DNA of 64,000 bases, taken from contig CAKZQG010000026.1 of assembly GCA_937139605.1 (NCBI GenBank), positions 42,827 to 106,826 on the forward strand, written 5' to 3'. The position numbers were made by a program, and so were the translations under genes. The notes beneath the pieces were generated by a model that saw nothing but the letters and a program-made list of their open reading frames with translations, had not been told where the DNA came from and did not search any database. This document shows, in pieces, positions 490-11,212 of the stretch. Within the stretch, counting starts at the first letter, position 1. Every line of letters begins with the position of its first letter. Source of the stretch: an uncultured bacterium (lineage in GTDB: Bacteria > DRYD01).

Positions 490-2301
490 TTAATTACTTT
501 TAAATGTATTTTCAAAATAATTACTAAAGCTCATACCTAAAGCAAAATAGAAGTTAATTTCATCTAAGGAAATATTTTTATAATTTTCTTTCCAATCTGT
601 CCCAACTTTCAAATAATAATAAGAAACTAACTCCTTTAGTATTGTAAAAATTTTATAATTAATATCGTATTCCATGATTTTATTTACAAGTTCTTTATAA
701 AGTATTTTAAAATCATTTTCATTCATTTTTAAGTTTTTAATATTTTTAATGAAGGGTGAAGATCCTCGTCGTCTTTGTTGTTCTTTTATAAAAAGCTGCG
801 TCAATACCCCTTCTAAAAATATAAATTTAAATAAATCATTTATAAAAGCTTTAGAAAAATTATTAAAAAAATTCTCTGCTAACTCTATATTTGTTTGGTT
901 AATATTTTCGATTTTCTCGGGTTTTATTGCATCTTCTGGCATACCTATCACCTCCTGAATTAAATTTAATTCAAGTAAAAATAAATAAAACTTAAACACA
1001 TAGATAGTAGTTTCAAGAATCGAACCACTTTTAAAAGCTGAATTTAGTTTATCTGATACCTGTTTAAATAAAGTGCTTTTTGAAATAGGTATCATTTTAA
1101 ATATATTTTCTATTGCCTTTAAAAACAATTTTTCATTACCATTAAATACTTTATCCTTAGCTGAATCCAATTTGAACTCTTCCCCTAAAATCTTATTAAG
1201 ATTTTTATCTGTAATTTTACTTAGCAAAATATCTCCTTTAAATACCCGATCTATATATTCTTTTACAGAAAATATTTTAGAAATCGTTGTAGGTAAAGTA
1301 TTTTCTATAAATAACTTTATTCTAAATGCATTATTTTCTTTTTCATAAAATAAAAAATTGTATAATATATAAATATTATTAAGCCTTAAGTAATCTAATA
1401 TTTCATTTTCATCTTCTGTTATCTTTCTTAAATTACTTAAAGTATTTTTTCTATTATAGTAATCTTTTATTAAATATTTCAAAGTATCAACAAAATCTGA
1501 ATTATTATTTATAACAAAATCTGGAATAAGATAATAATCAATTCTTGCTAATTTAAAGCTTAAATAATTATCTATAAAATAATATCCATTGATTATTTTA
1601 TAAATACAATCTATACATAATGGAAAATTTTTATACATTTCTTTTTCTTTAAATCCATTGGATATGTAGTTAATTTTATCAAAGGTATAGAATTTTAGGG
1701 GGAAGCCTTTAGCCACTACAGTTTTAAAACTATCACAACTATAACATTTTCCTTGCCCTTTTACTTCAGAATTATCTTCCTCAAAACTATTTAATATTAT
1801 TTCTTTAAATTTAGATAATTCAGAATCATCTTGTATTATATCTTTTAAATAATAAATTTCTTTATTTGAATCTATAAATCCTATTGTTATTAAATATTTT
1901 TCTTTATCTGAAAAAAGAGTTTTTAATTTTTTTAGTATGTTTTCCTTATTTTCTTTTAGTTGTAAATATATTTTATCTATTACGAGATATTTTTGCCTAT
2001 ATTTATTATTACTAAAATATTTAAATATTTTATTTTCAAAAGTTCTTTCAATCTTTGTTATTTTAGCTGTTGGGGTATAATTTGTACCAGCCGATGAACC
2101 TGAAATAAGTACGTACTTTTTACCTTCTTCTTTAGTTTCTTCTAAATGGATATCCTTATACTCAAAAGTATCTTTATCAAACAATATTACAAGAGCATAT
2201 TTATAATTTTGATCAACTTTTTCAGAAAGGATTTCTATTTTATCTTCATAACTTAATGAATCACTTTTATAATCACTTAACATTATAAAATTACTAATCA
2301 T
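490..2301 (-). CDS. csh1: Cas8b/Csh1, large subunit of type I-B Cascade
   Basis: A 603-residue protein of the TM1802/Csh1 class, the large subunit that in type I-B systems recognises the PAM and helps load target DNA. A split zinc finger is visible, CYSC near residue 186 and CIDC near residue 229, as in other Csh1 proteins. A GSSAG turn lies near residue 70. The C-terminal third is mostly helical, as expected for the part that replaces a separate Cas11 small subunit; that role is inferred. It is the first gene of the operon in this window, with a good ribosome site (AAGGGAG) 7 bases before the ATG, and is followed by csh2. No cas6, cas4 or cas1 precedes it. Family assignment rests on the zinc-finger layout, the length and the csh2 neighbour. 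Confidence 0.85.
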   Translation of the reverse strand: MISNFIMLSDYKSDSLSYEDKIEILSEKVDQNYKYALVILFDKDTFEYKDIHLEETKEEGKKYVLISGSSAGTNYTPTAKITKIERTFENKIFKYFSNNKYRQKYLVIDKIYLQLKENKENILKKLKTLFSDKEKYLITIGFIDSNKEIYYLKDIIQDDSELSKFKEIILNSFEEDNSEVKGQGKCYSCDSFKTVVAKGFPLKFYTFDKINYISNGFKEKEMYKNFPLCIDCIYKIINGYYFIDNYLSFKLARIDYYLIPDFVINNNSDFVDTLKYLIKDYYNRKNTLSNLRKITEDENEILDYLRLNNIYILYNFLFYEKENNAFRIKLFIENTLPTTISKIFSVKEYIDRVFKGDILLSKITDKNLNKILGEEFKLDSAKDKVFNGNEKLFLKAIENIFKMIPISKSTLFKQVSDKLNSAFKSGSILETTIYVFKFYLFLLELNLIQEVIGMPEDAIKPEKIENINQTNIELAENFFNNFSKAFINDLFKFIFLEGVLTQLFIKEQQRRRGSSPFIKNIKNLKMNENDFKILYKELVNKIMEYDINYKIFTILKELVSYYYLKVGTDWKENYKNISLDEINFYFALGMSFSNYFENTFKSN

Positions 2302-2459
2302 TTTTTTACTCCCTTATTTTTTAGTTTTTTTTCTCCTTAGGATAATTTAATTATATTTTTAATTTAGAAAATCCTTTTTTATTACTATTAAAAAAATTTA
2401 AATTTAATTGACTTTTGTCAATTTTATATGAAAATTTTATATGAAATATTAATTAATAA
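2302..2459. promoter_or_regulatory. cas operon upstream region with a TTGAC-N4-GTCAA site
   Basis: AT-rich gap between the stop of the PEP-synthase-like gene and the csh1 start, both on the minus strand, so it should hold the cas promoter. It contains TTGACTTTTGTCAA at 2408-2421, identical to the element repeated 12 times beside the replication origin. Read on the minus strand the site begins TTGACA, a perfect -35 hexamer, but I see no good -10 at 17 bases. The site may be an operator, a promoter element or both. Confidence 0.45.
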
Positions 2460-6179: not shown

Positions 6180-7487
6180 TTATAGTTTTAGATTAATAAA
6201 TAAGTAGTATAAAATAACGCCAAAAAATATTAGAATATTTCTAATAAAAAATCGGTGCTTTTCTAAATTAATTTTTCTAAACTCTATAAAAGAATCTAAC
6301 ATAATTAAAAATAAAGTTATAATTAAAAACAAATGTAAATAATTCAACAGATTAGATACCATAAATACAGGAAAAATAACAATAGTAAAAAATCCCAATA
6401 AATTTAGAATTCTTTTTAAGATATGAAGTTTTTTAGAATAATTAAATAAATAATTAAAGATGAAAATAGCTTGCCAAGAAATAACAGATAAAAATATAAA
6501 AAATATCTCGTTAATTAAACTATAATTAAAATGTATAAAAAAAGAAATGATAATACTAAAAAAAGTAGTAAATATAACAGAATTTACATCATATTTATAA
6601 TTTAACTTACTTACAAAAGCAATTAAAAAAAATATAATTTCAAAATAAAAAAGGGTAAAAAAGTAATAAATATTAGTTAAAGCAAAACAAGTATAATTAA
6701 CAATAATCATAACAATTATTCCACTAATTGTAATAATCTTTGTATTATAAAACAAAATAAATGTAATAAAAATAATGATAAATAAAGATAGAATTAAATA
6801 GATTAGATAATTTACATCTAAATTGGATAATCGTTGTAGTAAAAATAAAACCCCTAAGGGAATAAATATATTATCAGTCCCATATATTGATATTAGCTCT
6901 AACATAGTTATTAAAATAGCTATAATAAAGGAAATAAGGATAATATTTAATAAATGGAAATTAGAGAATAAAATCAAAGGGATTTTAATGGATAAAAAAG
7001 TCATAATAAAAAAAATAAGAGAGCCTTCTAAGGTTTTAAAATCCTGTTCAATAGGTATTTTAATTTTCCCATATTTTTTTCCGATTATTGCAGCTAAAGC
7101 ATCCGATAACGCTAACACTAATAAAGATATCAAATAAAAATAATATTCTTTGCTAAATATAAAAACTAAATATATACTCATAGGAAATAAGATTTCTCCA
7201 ATAGTTTTCCTATCTATATCAACTACACTTTTTAATAAACTATCTTTATTTTTATAAAATTTAAATATAAAAATAAATATACTAAAAAAAATAGATAAAA
7301 ATAGTAAAGTTAAATGGTTAGAAATAATAAAAGGGAAGCTTAAAGCAAAAAGAGAAGAAAAAATATGTACAAATTTCCGAGATAACTCAACATCAAACCT
7401 CTTATATATTATCTTACCTATAAAAAATATAATAAATAGTACAGAAAAAATTAAGACAATTGCTAATAAATCATTTTTTATTAACAT
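6180..7487 (-). CDS. Dolichol/phytol-kinase-like membrane protein (SEC59/VTE5 superfamily)
   Basis: A 435-residue polytopic membrane protein. The first roughly 220 residues match the CTP-dependent polyprenol kinase / CDP-diglyceride synthetase fold: RKFVHIFSSLFAL near residue 36, DRKTIGEILFP near residue 93, DALAAIIGKKYGK near residue 128, then KTLEGSLIFF near residue 151. The aspartate and GKKYGK in DALAAIIGKKYGK are the usual nucleotide-site residues. The last roughly 200 residues add about six more hydrophobic helices, making it longer than simple VTE5-type kinases. Expected reaction: phosphorylation of a prenyl alcohol from CTP. It is first in the operon and faces the origin region on its 5' side. 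Confidence 0.72.
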   Translation of the reverse strand: MLIKNDLLAIVLIFSVLFIIFFIGKIIYKRFDVELSRKFVHIFSSLFALSFPFIISNHLTLLFLSIFFSIFIFIFKFYKNKDSLLKSVVDIDRKTIGEILFPMSIYLVFIFSKEYYFYLISLLVLALSDALAAIIGKKYGKIKIPIEQDFKTLEGSLIFFIMTFLSIKIPLILFSNFHLLNIILISFIIAILITMLELISIYGTDNIFIPLGVLFLLQRLSNLDVNYLIYLILSLFIIIFITFILFYNTKIITISGIIVMIIVNYTCFALTNIYYFFTLFYFEIIFFLIAFVSKLNYKYDVNSVIFTTFFSIIISFFIHFNYSLINEIFFIFLSVISWQAIFIFNYLFNYSKKLHILKRILNLLGFFTIVIFPVFMVSNLLNYLHLFLIITLFLIMLDSFIEFRKINLEKHRFFIRNILIFFGVILYYLFINLKL

Positions 7488-7765
7488 ATTTACATATTAG
7501 TTATCTATTTTATATATTTTTTATATTTTTATCATAAACCTTTAACAATTTTTTTTGGCATTTTTTGCTATTTTTTTATTTTTTTATTTTTTTCAACTTT
7601 AAGGTAGGTATTTAAGTCCAAAAAGAGCTCTTTAAATCACAAGAAAGCGTTTAAATTCAATAAAAATATTAAAACCCAAAAACTATTAAAACAAAAAAAT
7701 ATTAAAACAAAAAGAAATTATTTAAATTTAAAAGGAACTATTTAAACCATTTTAGTTTTTTTAAA
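7488..7765. other. AT-rich non-coding flank of the origin region
   Basis: No open frame of note and no strong repeat until about 7765. It contains short direct variants of AAAAACNNNTTAAA-type sequence and presumably the promoter of the minus-strand operon starting at 7487. Confidence 0.4.
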
Positions 7766-9095
7766 TTTATTTGTTAAAAATTTGTAAATTTATTCATTAA
7801 AAGTATTTTTTAAGTGTGTTTTTTTATTGACTTTTGTCAATTTTTTTTGACATATTTTTAGAATTTTTTTTAAAATTTCATAGATTGTAAAATTTGTAAA
7901 AAATATATTACAAAATTGTAAAAAACTTGTTAATAAAATCAACTTTATTGACTTTTGTCAATATCGATTTTTCCACATTGACTTTTGTCAATTTTTTTTG
8001 GCATTTTTTTACAAAAAATTTTACAAAAATGATTCTCTTTAGGAATTTCCCTTGTTAAAAATTTGTTAACTAATTTGTTAAAAATTTGTAAAATACCCTT
8101 TTTTATTGACTTTTATCAATTTTTTTTGATATTTACTTTTTCCATCTCTAAATGTAAAATTTGTAAAAATTATTTTACAAAATTATTAAAATTTTGTTAA
8201 TAAAAATCAATTTTATTATCTTTTTTAAAAATTTAAAAAAATATTGACTTTTGTCAATTTTTTTCAATATTTTTTAATATTTTTTAAAAAATTTACTTTT
8301 TTCTTAAAAAAAATATTATTTTTTATTGACTTTTATCAACTTTTTTGTATATTTTTTTATCATTTTTTCAAAAAAATTTTTTCAAAATTTTTCAAAAAAA
8401 AATTTTGTTAAAAATTTGTTAACTAATTTGTTAAAAAATTGTTAAATGATTTTTTTATTGACTTTTGTCAACTTTTTTGACTATTATTTTTTTATATTTC
8501 TAAATGTAAAATTTGTAAAAAATATATTGCAAAATTGTTAAAAACTTGTTAATAAAATCAACTTTATTGACTTTTGTCAACTTTTTTGATATTTTTTATT
8601 TTTTTTAACAAAAAATAAAATTCCAAAAAATTTTTTAAAAAATTTTTTTTGTTAAAAATTTGTAAACTGATTTGTAAAAAAATTGTTAACACCTATTTTT
8701 ATTGACTTTTGTCAATTTTTTTTGACATATTTTTAATAAATTTTTATATATTTCCTAATGTAAAATTTGTAAAAAATATATTACAAAATTGTAAAAATTT
8801 TGTTAATAAAAACCAATTTTATTTATTTTTTTTAAAATATTGACTTTTATCAACTTTTTTTATATTTTTTTATTTTTTTCAATATCTCAATAAAAAAAAT
8901 ATTATTTTTTTCAAAAAAAATGCCCTTTTTTATTGACTTTTATCAATTTTTTTTGATATTTTTTAAGTCTTCTTTTTTATATAAATTTTTTTCAAAATTT
9001 TTAAAAAAAATTATTTGTTAAAAATTTGTTAACTAATTTGTTAAAAAATTGTTAAATACCCTTTTTTGTTGACTTTTATCAATTTTTTTATATAT
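7765..9095. repeat. Origin-adjacent array: 12 x TTGAC-TTTT-(G/A)TCAA within higher-order repeats
   Basis: The 14-mer TTGACTTTTGTCAA (or TTGACTTTTATCAA) occurs at 7827, 7948, 7978, 8106, 8244, 8326, 8458, 8567, 8702, 8840, 8933 and 9069, always in the same orientation and usually followed by a run of T. Arms TTGAC/GTCAA form a dyad with a 4-base spacer. Between them alternate two longer modules. Module A (GTTAAAAATTTGTTAACTAA form) lies near 7769, 8054, 8406, 8651 and 9017. Module B (GTAAAATTTGTAAAAAATAT form) lies near 7888, 8154, 8506 and 8760. Together they give a degenerate repeat of about 250-360 bases. The plus strand is strongly T-rich. No coding frame is supported. Confidence 0.9.
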
Positions 9096-9139
9096 TTTTT
9101 TAAATTTTTCCCAATTTTTTTATTTTTTTTACAAAAAAT

Positions 9140-9470
9140 AAAGTTATCCACATACCCATATAAAGTTATCCACATTTATCCCCAAAGTTATCCACATTTT
9201 ATCCACATGTGGATAAATTATATTAATTTTGTGGAAAAATTCCATTTTTTTGTGGATAACTATGTGGAAAAATTGTGGATAACTCCCAAAGGTTAAAAAA
9301 ATTATCCACATATTTTTTAAGTTATCCACATCTTATCCACATACCCCCATCCTTATAAACCCTTGATAATACTAATTCTAAAAAAGTTTTCCACAAATGT
9401 GGATAAATATACTACTACTAAATAATATATTTATATAATATTATAGTAGTAAATGAACTACTACTAAAAA
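9140..9470. other. oriC: Candidate chromosomal replication origin (oriC)
   Basis: Eleven perfect DnaA boxes TTATCCACA. On the plus strand they start at 9144, 9166, 9188, 9199, 9302, 9322 and 9333; on the minus strand at 9208, 9251, 9274 and 9398. Near matches lie at 9176, 9230, 9263 and 9387. The first three are spaced exactly 22 bases and the fourth 11, so they lie on helical phase. The boxes at 9199 and 9208 form a perfect 18-base palindrome. Right of the last box, 9411-9475 is an A/T block with ACTACTACTA and TAGTAGTAA, resembling an unwinding element with DnaA-trios. Most bacterial origins lie next to dnaA, dnaN or gidA; here the neighbours are a lipid operon and a Rieske protein. Confidence 0.88.
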
Positions 9471-9694: not shown

Positions 9695-9838
9695 GTGGGT
9701 TTATGGGGGTGGAGCCCATTTTTAGGGGGGGGTTATTTTAACTTCCTAATGGGGTATGGGGCGAAGCCACATTGTTAGGGGGGTTTTAGGGGGTTATTTT
9801 AACCCCCTAATGGGGTATGGGGCGAAGCCCCATTGTTA
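9695..9838. repeat. GC-rich tandem hairpin repeat (about 60-base unit, 2 good copies and 1 remnant)
   Basis: Two similar units, 9721-9777 and 9784-9838, and a degenerate piece at 9695-9720. The second unit holds two perfect hairpins: TTAGGGGGTTA/TAACCCCCTAA (9786-9796 with 9800-9810) and ATGGGGC-GAA-GCCCCAT (9817-9833). The first unit has the same layout with mismatches. The last bases overlap the stop codon of the Rieske gene. In a genome this AT-rich the block stands out. It may be a REP-like element, or work as the terminator of the Rieske/csaB transcript, although no T-run follows either hairpin. Confidence 0.75.
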
Positions 9839-10168
9839 AAAAAGTATATAAATTTTATTATTTTCGATTTTAGTTTTAAATATATTAATGGGTGTAACTG
9901 CAGGCATTCTAAGGGCTTTACCTGTTTCTAAATCAAATATTGCTCCATGATGAGAACATTCTATTGTTTTTTTAGATTCATTAATGTTTCCATCTTCTAA
10001 ACTTTTTTCATCATGACTGCATTTATTTTCTATACAGAATATAGCGTTCCCTATTTTTATAATTAATATTTCTAAGTTATCTGCTAGTTTTTTCTTGATT
10101 TTATTAGTATTTTTTAGTTCATCTATAGTTGCTATTTCTATCCAGGTATTGGATGTATTTAAACTCAT
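9836..10168 (-). CDS. Rieske [2Fe-2S] ferredoxin
   Basis: A 110-residue soluble protein with both Rieske ligand pairs: CSH (C-x-H) near residue 54 and CSHHG (C-x2-H) near residue 78, followed by AIFDLETGKAL as in bacterial Rieske ferredoxins and the small subunits of NirD or dioxygenase systems. It has no membrane anchor, so it is a cytoplasmic electron carrier rather than a cytochrome-bc subunit. A partner oxygenase or reductase is not present in this window. It sits 48 bases downstream of the unknown 331-residue gene in the same direction and has an AGGAGGGAG ribosome site. Confidence 0.88.
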   Translation of the reverse strand: MSLNTSNTWIEIATIDELKNTNKIKKKLADNLEILIIKIGNAIFCIENKCSHDEKSLEDGNINESKKTIECSHHGAIFDLETGKALRMPAVTPINIFKTKIENNKIYILF

Positions 10169-10216: not shown

Positions 10217-11212
10217 TTATATTAGCATATATTTAATAACGGTTTCAGAGGGTAGGAATTTTTTTAAGTAATTTTCTAATTTTGTTAAGATAATATTATT
10301 TTCTGGCATTCTAAAATATAATGACGGAGTTTCTTCTGTTAAGCTTAATATAAAACTAGTTATAGTATCAAGGTAATTATTTGAATTAGAATTAGATATA
10401 TTTTCTATTCTTAAGATTGAATTAGATTTTAAAATATTATAAAAATTAATGGAATTAAAAGAAAATGGATTAAAATAAAAAGTATTAACTTTAAGATCTG
10501 TATAGTTTATTTCTAGGTAAGCTGTTCTGTTTTGATAGGGTAGGTTATATAGATATTTATCTAAATTAATTTCTAAGTTTTGTTGTTCTATATATTTATA
10601 ATAATTTTCTTGTTGGTTTTTTATTAAACCTATTACTCTTTCTGAGTTGATTGTTTTTATTATATTTTTTAATTTTAAGATATTACCGTCTGATATTATA
10701 AAAGAGTTATTATTAAATTTATAATGAAATAGAGAGTAAATATAGAATGATTCTAAGGAAAGCATTAGGTAGGTAGTATAATTTTCTAAGTATTCATTTA
10801 TAGGCCAAGTAAAATCTGAATTTATCTCAAAAAAAACTATGAACATATTAGTTCTATTTAAATCAATATTTTTTAATATTGTATTTAAGTTTTCAACACT
10901 TTTTAAAATATCTATATTTTCTATTAATATATATTCTTTAATATAGTTTTTTAAGAGTTTTGGAAGATTTTGGCGATAATACGAACTTAAACAATAAAAA
11001 ATAAAAGGATTCCCAAATTGCAACCTTTCTTTTACTATTGATACATATCCAATAACTGTTAAAAATACAAATTTATCTATATCATAAAAAAAACTTTTTT
11101 TTACCCCATCTACTATGTAATAATTAAATTCTTTGTAATTAATGTTTTTATTGATTTTATAATAGCTTAGGTTTTCTAATAAATTTACTTTTATATTAGG
11201 TTTTATTGTCAT
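10217..11212 (-). CDS. Unknown protein overlapping csaB (possible NurA-like fold)
   Basis: A 331-residue soluble protein, not confidently recognised. It contains YYIVDGVKKS near residue 31 and SDGNILKLKNI near residue 176, followed by RVIGLIKNQQENYY near residue 193, and ends with PSLYFRMPENN and a C-terminal helix. The pattern DG, later DG, then VIGLIK resembles NurA-type nucleases, which have acidic residues at such positions, but the match is from memory and weak, and no HerA helicase is nearby. Its start overlaps the last 17 bases of csaB, so it is translationally coupled to it. There are no signal peptide or membrane segments. Confidence 0.6.
   Translation of the reverse strand: MTIKPNIKVNLLENLSYYKINKNINYKEFNYYIVDGVKKSFFYDIDKFVFLTVIGYVSIVKERLQFGNPFIFYCLSSYYRQNLPKLLKNYIKEYILIENIDILKSVENLNTILKNIDLNRTNMFIVFFEINSDFTWPINEYLENYTTYLMLSLESFYIYSLFHYKFNNNSFIISDGNILKLKNIIKTINSERVIGLIKNQQENYYKYIEQQNLEINLDKYLYNLPYQNRTAYLEINYTDLKVNTFYFNPFSFNSINFYNILKSNSILRIENISNSNSNNYLDTITSFILSLTEETPSLYFRMPENNIILTKLENYLKKFLPSETVIKYMLI

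Follow-up and report, generated by a model that had tools for sequence, protein, structure and literature searches.

A dozen FNR-type dyads beside the predicted replication origin of an uncultured bacterium form a candidate regulatory array

The predicted chromosomal origin of an uncultured bacterium is bordered on one side by twelve copies of a 14-bp dyad, which raises the question of what reads these sites and what they do beside the DnaA boxes. The DNA analysed was a single stretch of 64,000 nucleotides, referred to here as the window, from a MAG of 88.5% completeness designated G000 in the comparisons. The origin region comprises the following features:

7827..9082, plus strand: oriC-side array of 12 dyads, TTGAC-TTTT-RTCAA, all exact matches, above chance and also present as an array in the congener G001
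7827, 7948, 7978, 8106, 8244, 8326, 8458, 8567, 8702, 8840, 8933 and 9069, plus strand: starts of the dyads
7500..9130, 30 on the minus and 5 on the plus strand: phased TTWACAA heptamers at 11-bp spacing, interleaved with the dyads
9144..9406, both strands: DnaA-box cluster of oriC, 15 boxes with 0-1 mismatch to TTATCCACA
9411..9466, plus strand: DnaA-trio ACTACTACTA and a second CTACTACTA at 9458 with an AT-rich unwinding region between them, the same element being present in G001

The array was reported by a first-pass annotation of the sequence as twelve same-strand copies, and all twelve were found to be exact and on the plus strand. That list is complete for the array, a stretch of 1.26 kb (~1.3 kb), and overlooked a thirteenth exact copy at 2408. 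Successive dyads are 121, 30, 128, 138, 82, 132, 109, 135, 138, 93 and 136 bp apart, seven of the eleven spacings falling within the 121-138 bp range around which many had been said to cluster. For 1.6 kb of sequence with matching composition (13.8% GC), 1000 dinucleotide shuffles produced no copy of the exact 14-mer, and the looser pattern TTGA-N6-TCAA occurred 12 times against 0.07 expected from the shuffled array stretch. Of 14 matches to TTGAYNNNNRTCAA in the window (0.46 expected), 13 are the 14-mer itself. Copies are not spread evenly over the 1.88-Mb draft genome, the count that the first-pass annotation had called for: 12 of the 22 exact copies sit in the array, and a reversed control pattern gave none. 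Across the 22 array sites of G000 and G001 the 14 positions are near-invariant, with C/T and A/G alternating at positions 5 and 10; short A-tracts flank the sites, and conservation drops within ~7 bp. The T-rich sequence described after the copies is present, being the A-tract flank of the other strand. No helical phasing of the dyads was apparent, the mean resultant length being 0.48/0.44 at 10.5 bp with similar or higher values at other periods. A search of Rfam returned no known RNA for the array.

The neighbouring sequence has the organisation of a chromosomal oriC, predicted from a DnaA-box cluster followed by a trio, the first CTACTACTA lying at 9412, and an AT-rich unwinding region. DnaA boxes, a trio and an AT-rich stretch make up the basal origin layout (PMC8287927 and related papers). 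Elsewhere in the window DnaA boxes numbered at most 2 per 300 bp. The array lies on one side only of the 15 boxes, as had been observed on first reading. Genes flanking the array are ordinary chromosomal genes (rpsP, trmFO and a PEP synthase-like gene), the nearby ORFs at 6180-7487 and 10217-11212 gave no family match, and dnaA is located on a different contig.

A second element, overlooked in the first reading, is interleaved with the dyads. TTWACAA heptamers occur 30 times on one strand against 1.2 expected, and TTWACA-N4-6-TTWACA pairs number 17 in the array versus 2 in the remaining 62 kb of the window. Measured from the dyad start, heptamers begin at +26 to +28, +37 to +39, +49/50 and +60/61 in both species, the set of offsets 27, 38, 50 and 61 matching to the base. 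The same heptamer set was not found downstream of the single-copy promoter dyads inspected. The pairs resemble an OmpR-family direct-repeat box (TTWACA-N5-TTWACA, 11 bp), but no response regulator was linked to them. Strict CtrA boxes, TTAA-N7-TTAA, occurred 7 times in the array against 1.7 expected; shuffles reached 9, and this number is not clearly beyond chance.

The array is also present at the origin of G001 (MAG RSWP7), the sole congeneric species whose genome was compared, and the origin comparison proposed in the first-pass annotation did not refute its observation. The congener carries nine exact TTGAY-AAAA-RTCAA (TTGAYAAAARTCAA) sites and two with one mismatch, all in a single orientation. 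The order of trio, DnaA boxes and array is identical in the two species, as are DnaA-box spacings of 23, 43, 9, 11, 22 and 22 bp; the trio of G001, TAGTAGTAGTAG, occupies the equivalent place, and dyad spacings of 30, 82/83, 109 and 137/138 bp recur in both. The whole oriC block is inverted relative to the gene for a Rieske protein (window 9836-10168; L059 10471-10797), which indicates that array and DnaA boxes moved as one. Counts of TTGAYAAAARTCAA were 27 in G000, 21 in G001 and 0-5 in genomes of the sister genus. Dyads are dispersed in the sister genus and the array is absent from its assembled sequence, in which the origin was found neither through DnaA-box pairs nor beside the Rieske gene.

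Outside the origin the dyad appears as a single operator. The isolated copy in the window and the gene below it are:

2408..2421, plus strand: isolated exact dyad in the cas8b/csh1 promoter region
490..2301, minus strand: cas8b/csh1 gene, downstream of the isolated dyad (NCBIfam TIGR02556, E 2e-63; TIGR02591)

In G000, G002 and G005 a dyad lies 180-345 bp upstream of the 16S rRNA gene and another 71-99 bp upstream of the 5S rRNA gene; in G003 the promoter matches and the contig ends before the 16S rRNA gene. Dyads at rRNA promoters are thus found in both genera of the family. Both congeners have the dyad upstream of genes for HU, a type-IV pilin and an SLH porin, and at the porin it is kept in both species with the centre AAAA in one and TTTT in the other. 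CRISPR leaders also carry it, 314 bp before the first repeat in G000 and 195 bp before it in several leaders of G001. Alongside the dyad these leaders carry conserved GTCGATC/GATCGAC elements in both species (L006, L031-L036; G000:C26:35844), and several near-identical leaders of G001 are situated at contig ends. Operator function is improbable for a few dyad copies that lie within genes or belong to a dispersed GC-rich repeat. Both species also have a dyad at the equivalent place within an LptF/G-like coding sequence (position 1501 of L021 and of L024).

The TTGAC/GTCAA arms had been taken to suggest a dimeric DNA-binding protein; the dyad itself is well supported, and binding by such a protein is predicted from the sequence. 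Beyond the parS and iteron comparisons of the annotation, the dyad does match a known type: TTGAY-N4-RTCAA corresponds to the CRP/FNR superfamily box of the FNR kind, and the sites serve as single operators elsewhere. The dyad has TTGAY half-sites with a 4-bp gap, and sister-genus (g2) genomes carry TTGATAAAAATCAA. The search for a regulator covered the CRP/FNR and ParB families and yielded the following candidate:

G000:C6:125414-126598: divergent CRP/FNR-like protein of 395 aa

Its counterpart in G001 has 345 aa, and G002 and G005 encode syntenic orthologues with lengths of 270 and 287 aa. A weak HTH_Crp_2 match occurs at the equivalent place in both congeners, with Pfam scores below the curated cut-off. 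The profile search against the PDB placed CprK at the top, followed later by a cyclic-nucleotide-binding domain, FNR and CRP. A structure predicted with no alignment was of low quality outside the winged helix. That part of the model most resembles CRP/FNR structures, MarR-type folds ranking just after them, and its Z of about 8 cannot by itself exclude other winged-helix families such as MarR. The recognition helices read SYETLIR, SYEVIIR and SHEVIVR, following the pattern [YH]E[TV][LI][IV]R. The Glu and Arg are what we take to be the equivalents of CRP E181/R185 and FNR E209/R213, while CRP R180 is missing, a combination that fits a reading of TTGA rather than TGTGA. Candidate and dyads co-occur in G000, G001, G002 and G005; the CRP-like gene was not found in G003, which has sites and is 83% complete. 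No dyad copy lies in front of the candidate gene. In the two array-bearing species the protein has a charged N-terminal tail of 100-150 aa that is missing from the sister genus. This tail carries ILDxIxDLDxDLEED, seen only in the array-bearing genus (L056 493-1680; L055 1456-2493). On this correlation the CRP/FNR-like protein is the best candidate for binding the dyad (TTGACAAAAGTCAA).

Taken together, these data tip the balance somewhat towards the array being a regulatory wing of oriC, composed of FNR/CRP-type operators; the dimeric global regulator reading them would have single promoters as further targets, and the CRP/FNR-like protein is the best candidate for it. The array could have the same role with a different binder, either nucleoid-associated or a dimeric regulator (in an IHF/Fis-like role, for example of the HU family, or of GntR/MarR type), the CRP/FNR-like gene being a bystander. 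A fixed A4 centre with phased A-tracts is unusual for FNR, the combination of oriC, CRISPR leader and rRNA promoter is the classical list of IHF/Fis sites, and the HU gene itself has a dyad. Against this, the TTGA/TCAA core, the 6-bp gap and the Y/R at positions 5 and 10 fit recognition of the FNR type by the candidate's Glu/Arg pair; the candidate accompanies the sites in four genomes, and a different binder is unlikely, although it is the most serious of the rivals. The dyad does not match WATCAANNNNTTR, the IHF consensus. It is improbable that the array consists instead of sigma-70 promoters (a TTGACA -35 with an A-tract UP element) from which transcription away from the DnaA boxes activates the origin. 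Each copy does begin with TTGACA or TTGATA after an A-run on the minus strand, and in the sister genus the first half-site at 16S and 5S promoters doubles as a good -35, with TATAAT or TATAAA 16-18 bp downstream. Such -35/-10 pairs occur at some single-copy sites of that genus; in the array -10 hexamers are not enriched downstream of the copies (mean 3.5-3.9 of 6 positions versus 3.8-4.1 at control offsets) and no conserved gene follows. The second half-site, RTCAA, is conserved though not read by sigma, and the flip of the A4 centre at the SLH porin while the dyad stays shows that the dyad and not a -35 hexamer is conserved.

A partition-like array was one suggestion of the first-pass annotation. 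A centromere of parS type for a ParB-type protein would agree with many sites adjoining oriC and with a ParB_N protein that is present in both array-bearing genomes and was not detected in G002-G006. That protein comprises a ParB_N domain only, with no HTH or other recognised DNA-binding domain and no adjacent ParA gene, whereas a ParABS centromere would pair a TGTTTCACGTGAAACA-type site with an HTH-bearing ParB and ParA. The window holds no parS-like 16-mer within 3 mismatches, the annotation having itself remarked that the array does not match parS, and the dyad is an ordinary promoter operator in genomes lacking the ParB_N protein; a centromere is very improbable. The ParB_N-only protein is encoded between fructose-bisphosphate aldolase-like and 6-phosphofructokinase-like genes (L057 985-1791, L058 985-1791). 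A non-functional satellite generated by slippage in AT-rich DNA is just as hard to credit: the units are related by duplication and their spacings recur, but the dyads remain near-identical in two species while the intervening sequence diverges, and heptamer offsets are kept to the base. The suggestion that the array is iteron-like did not hold, since the spacing of 30-138 bp is not near-helical, as in plasmid or Chr2 iterons, and the flanking genes identified include no rep. No terminator-like site was found in the array, and intrinsic terminators or conserved RNA hairpins were rejected because a C.A mismatch in 5 of the 12 copies breaks the stem.

Returning to the regulatory wing, each 14-mer, a TTGAY-N4-RTCAA box bordered by A-tracts and with its centre fixed as A4/T4, would be the operator of a dimeric global regulator. 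This regulator would further bind the single copies at the rRNA, HU, pilin, SLH-porin and cas8b genes and in CRISPR leaders. About a dozen dimers, together with the phased TTWACAA heptamers, would bend or wrap the DNA beside the DnaA boxes. Either a second protein or neighbours of the dyad-binding protein would recognise the heptamers, a second factor being probable. Depending on the signal received by the regulator, the wing would promote or block loading of DnaA. Duplication of the array right after initiation would titrate the regulator off rRNA and CRISPR promoters; bending or wrapping next to the DnaA boxes is favoured, with titration as a consequence. This suggests that the array couples growth control to initiation, an effect whose existence and sign we infer, and that transcription and the onset of chromosome replication may both be under one growth-related regulator. 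A fuller version, in which a regulator of the CRP/FNR type has taken on the role of origin-binding protein and a composite, helically phased dyad-plus-heptamer wing couples rRNA transcription, CRISPR expression and initiation through titration, is plausible but tentative, and we would sooner doubt than accept it as a whole.

Boxes of FNR, Anr, FixK and CprK (TTGAT-N4-ATCAA and variants) share the half-site TTGAY, the 4-bp gap and the 14-bp dyad, and the candidate has an FNR-compatible recognition helix. As a rule the central four positions of FNR/CRP boxes vary freely, whereas here the centre is always A4/T4. The present system differs also in the twelvefold repetition at oriC, in the sites at rRNA, HU and CRISPR promoters and in a candidate that is highly divergent and tailed in this genus. 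Global transcription regulators with multiple oriC sites include CtrA at the Caulobacter Cori, MtrA at the mycobacterial oriC and HP1021 at the H. pylori oriC (PMC4285127). OmpR-family direct-repeat boxes, among them that of CtrA (TTAA-N7-TTAA), resemble the 11-bp phased TTWACA repeats, but the main element here is an FNR-type dyad and not a response-regulator direct repeat, and the 12 sites sit apart from the DnaA-box cluster rather than overlapping it. Fis and IHF of E. coli are likewise single factors with sites both at oriC and elsewhere, namely strong promoters in the case of Fis (rRNA) and a CRISPR leader in that of IHF; their recognition sequences are unrelated, and one or two copies compare with a dozen tandem copies here. 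The datA and other DnaA-titration loci also hold clustered sites able to titrate a regulator upon duplication, although the present sites are not DnaA boxes and are at oriC itself. On the best-supported reading the array would work in the manner of the CtrA, MtrA and Fis/IHF sites at other origins while standing outside those systems.

CRP/FNR proteins are absent from a reviewed list of oriC-binding proteins (PMC4285127), and a partial literature search found no paper on CRP/FNR boxes at an oriC. An oriC with regulator sites is a known arrangement. If the proposal is true, the array offers an entry to replication timing in uncultured, deeply branching bacteria, the CRP/FNR family includes a regulator whose oriC sites outnumber the one to five that are usual, and an operator common to oriC, rRNA and CRISPR genes makes a link between growth, defence and initiation testable.

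Two minor observations concern the surroundings of the origins. GC-rich repeats (AATGGGGTATGGGGCGAAGCC-like) occur in this genome of 23% GC at window positions 9700-9845, just right of oriC, as well as at L070 about 1438-1515 and L090 1-200, and two related copies elsewhere begin beside TTGATAAAAATCAA. Near the congener origin lie two tandem paralogous ATPase-like ORFs (L059 3761-6868) with the sequence IGISDFKxLxxGxYVYVDKTEYIY.
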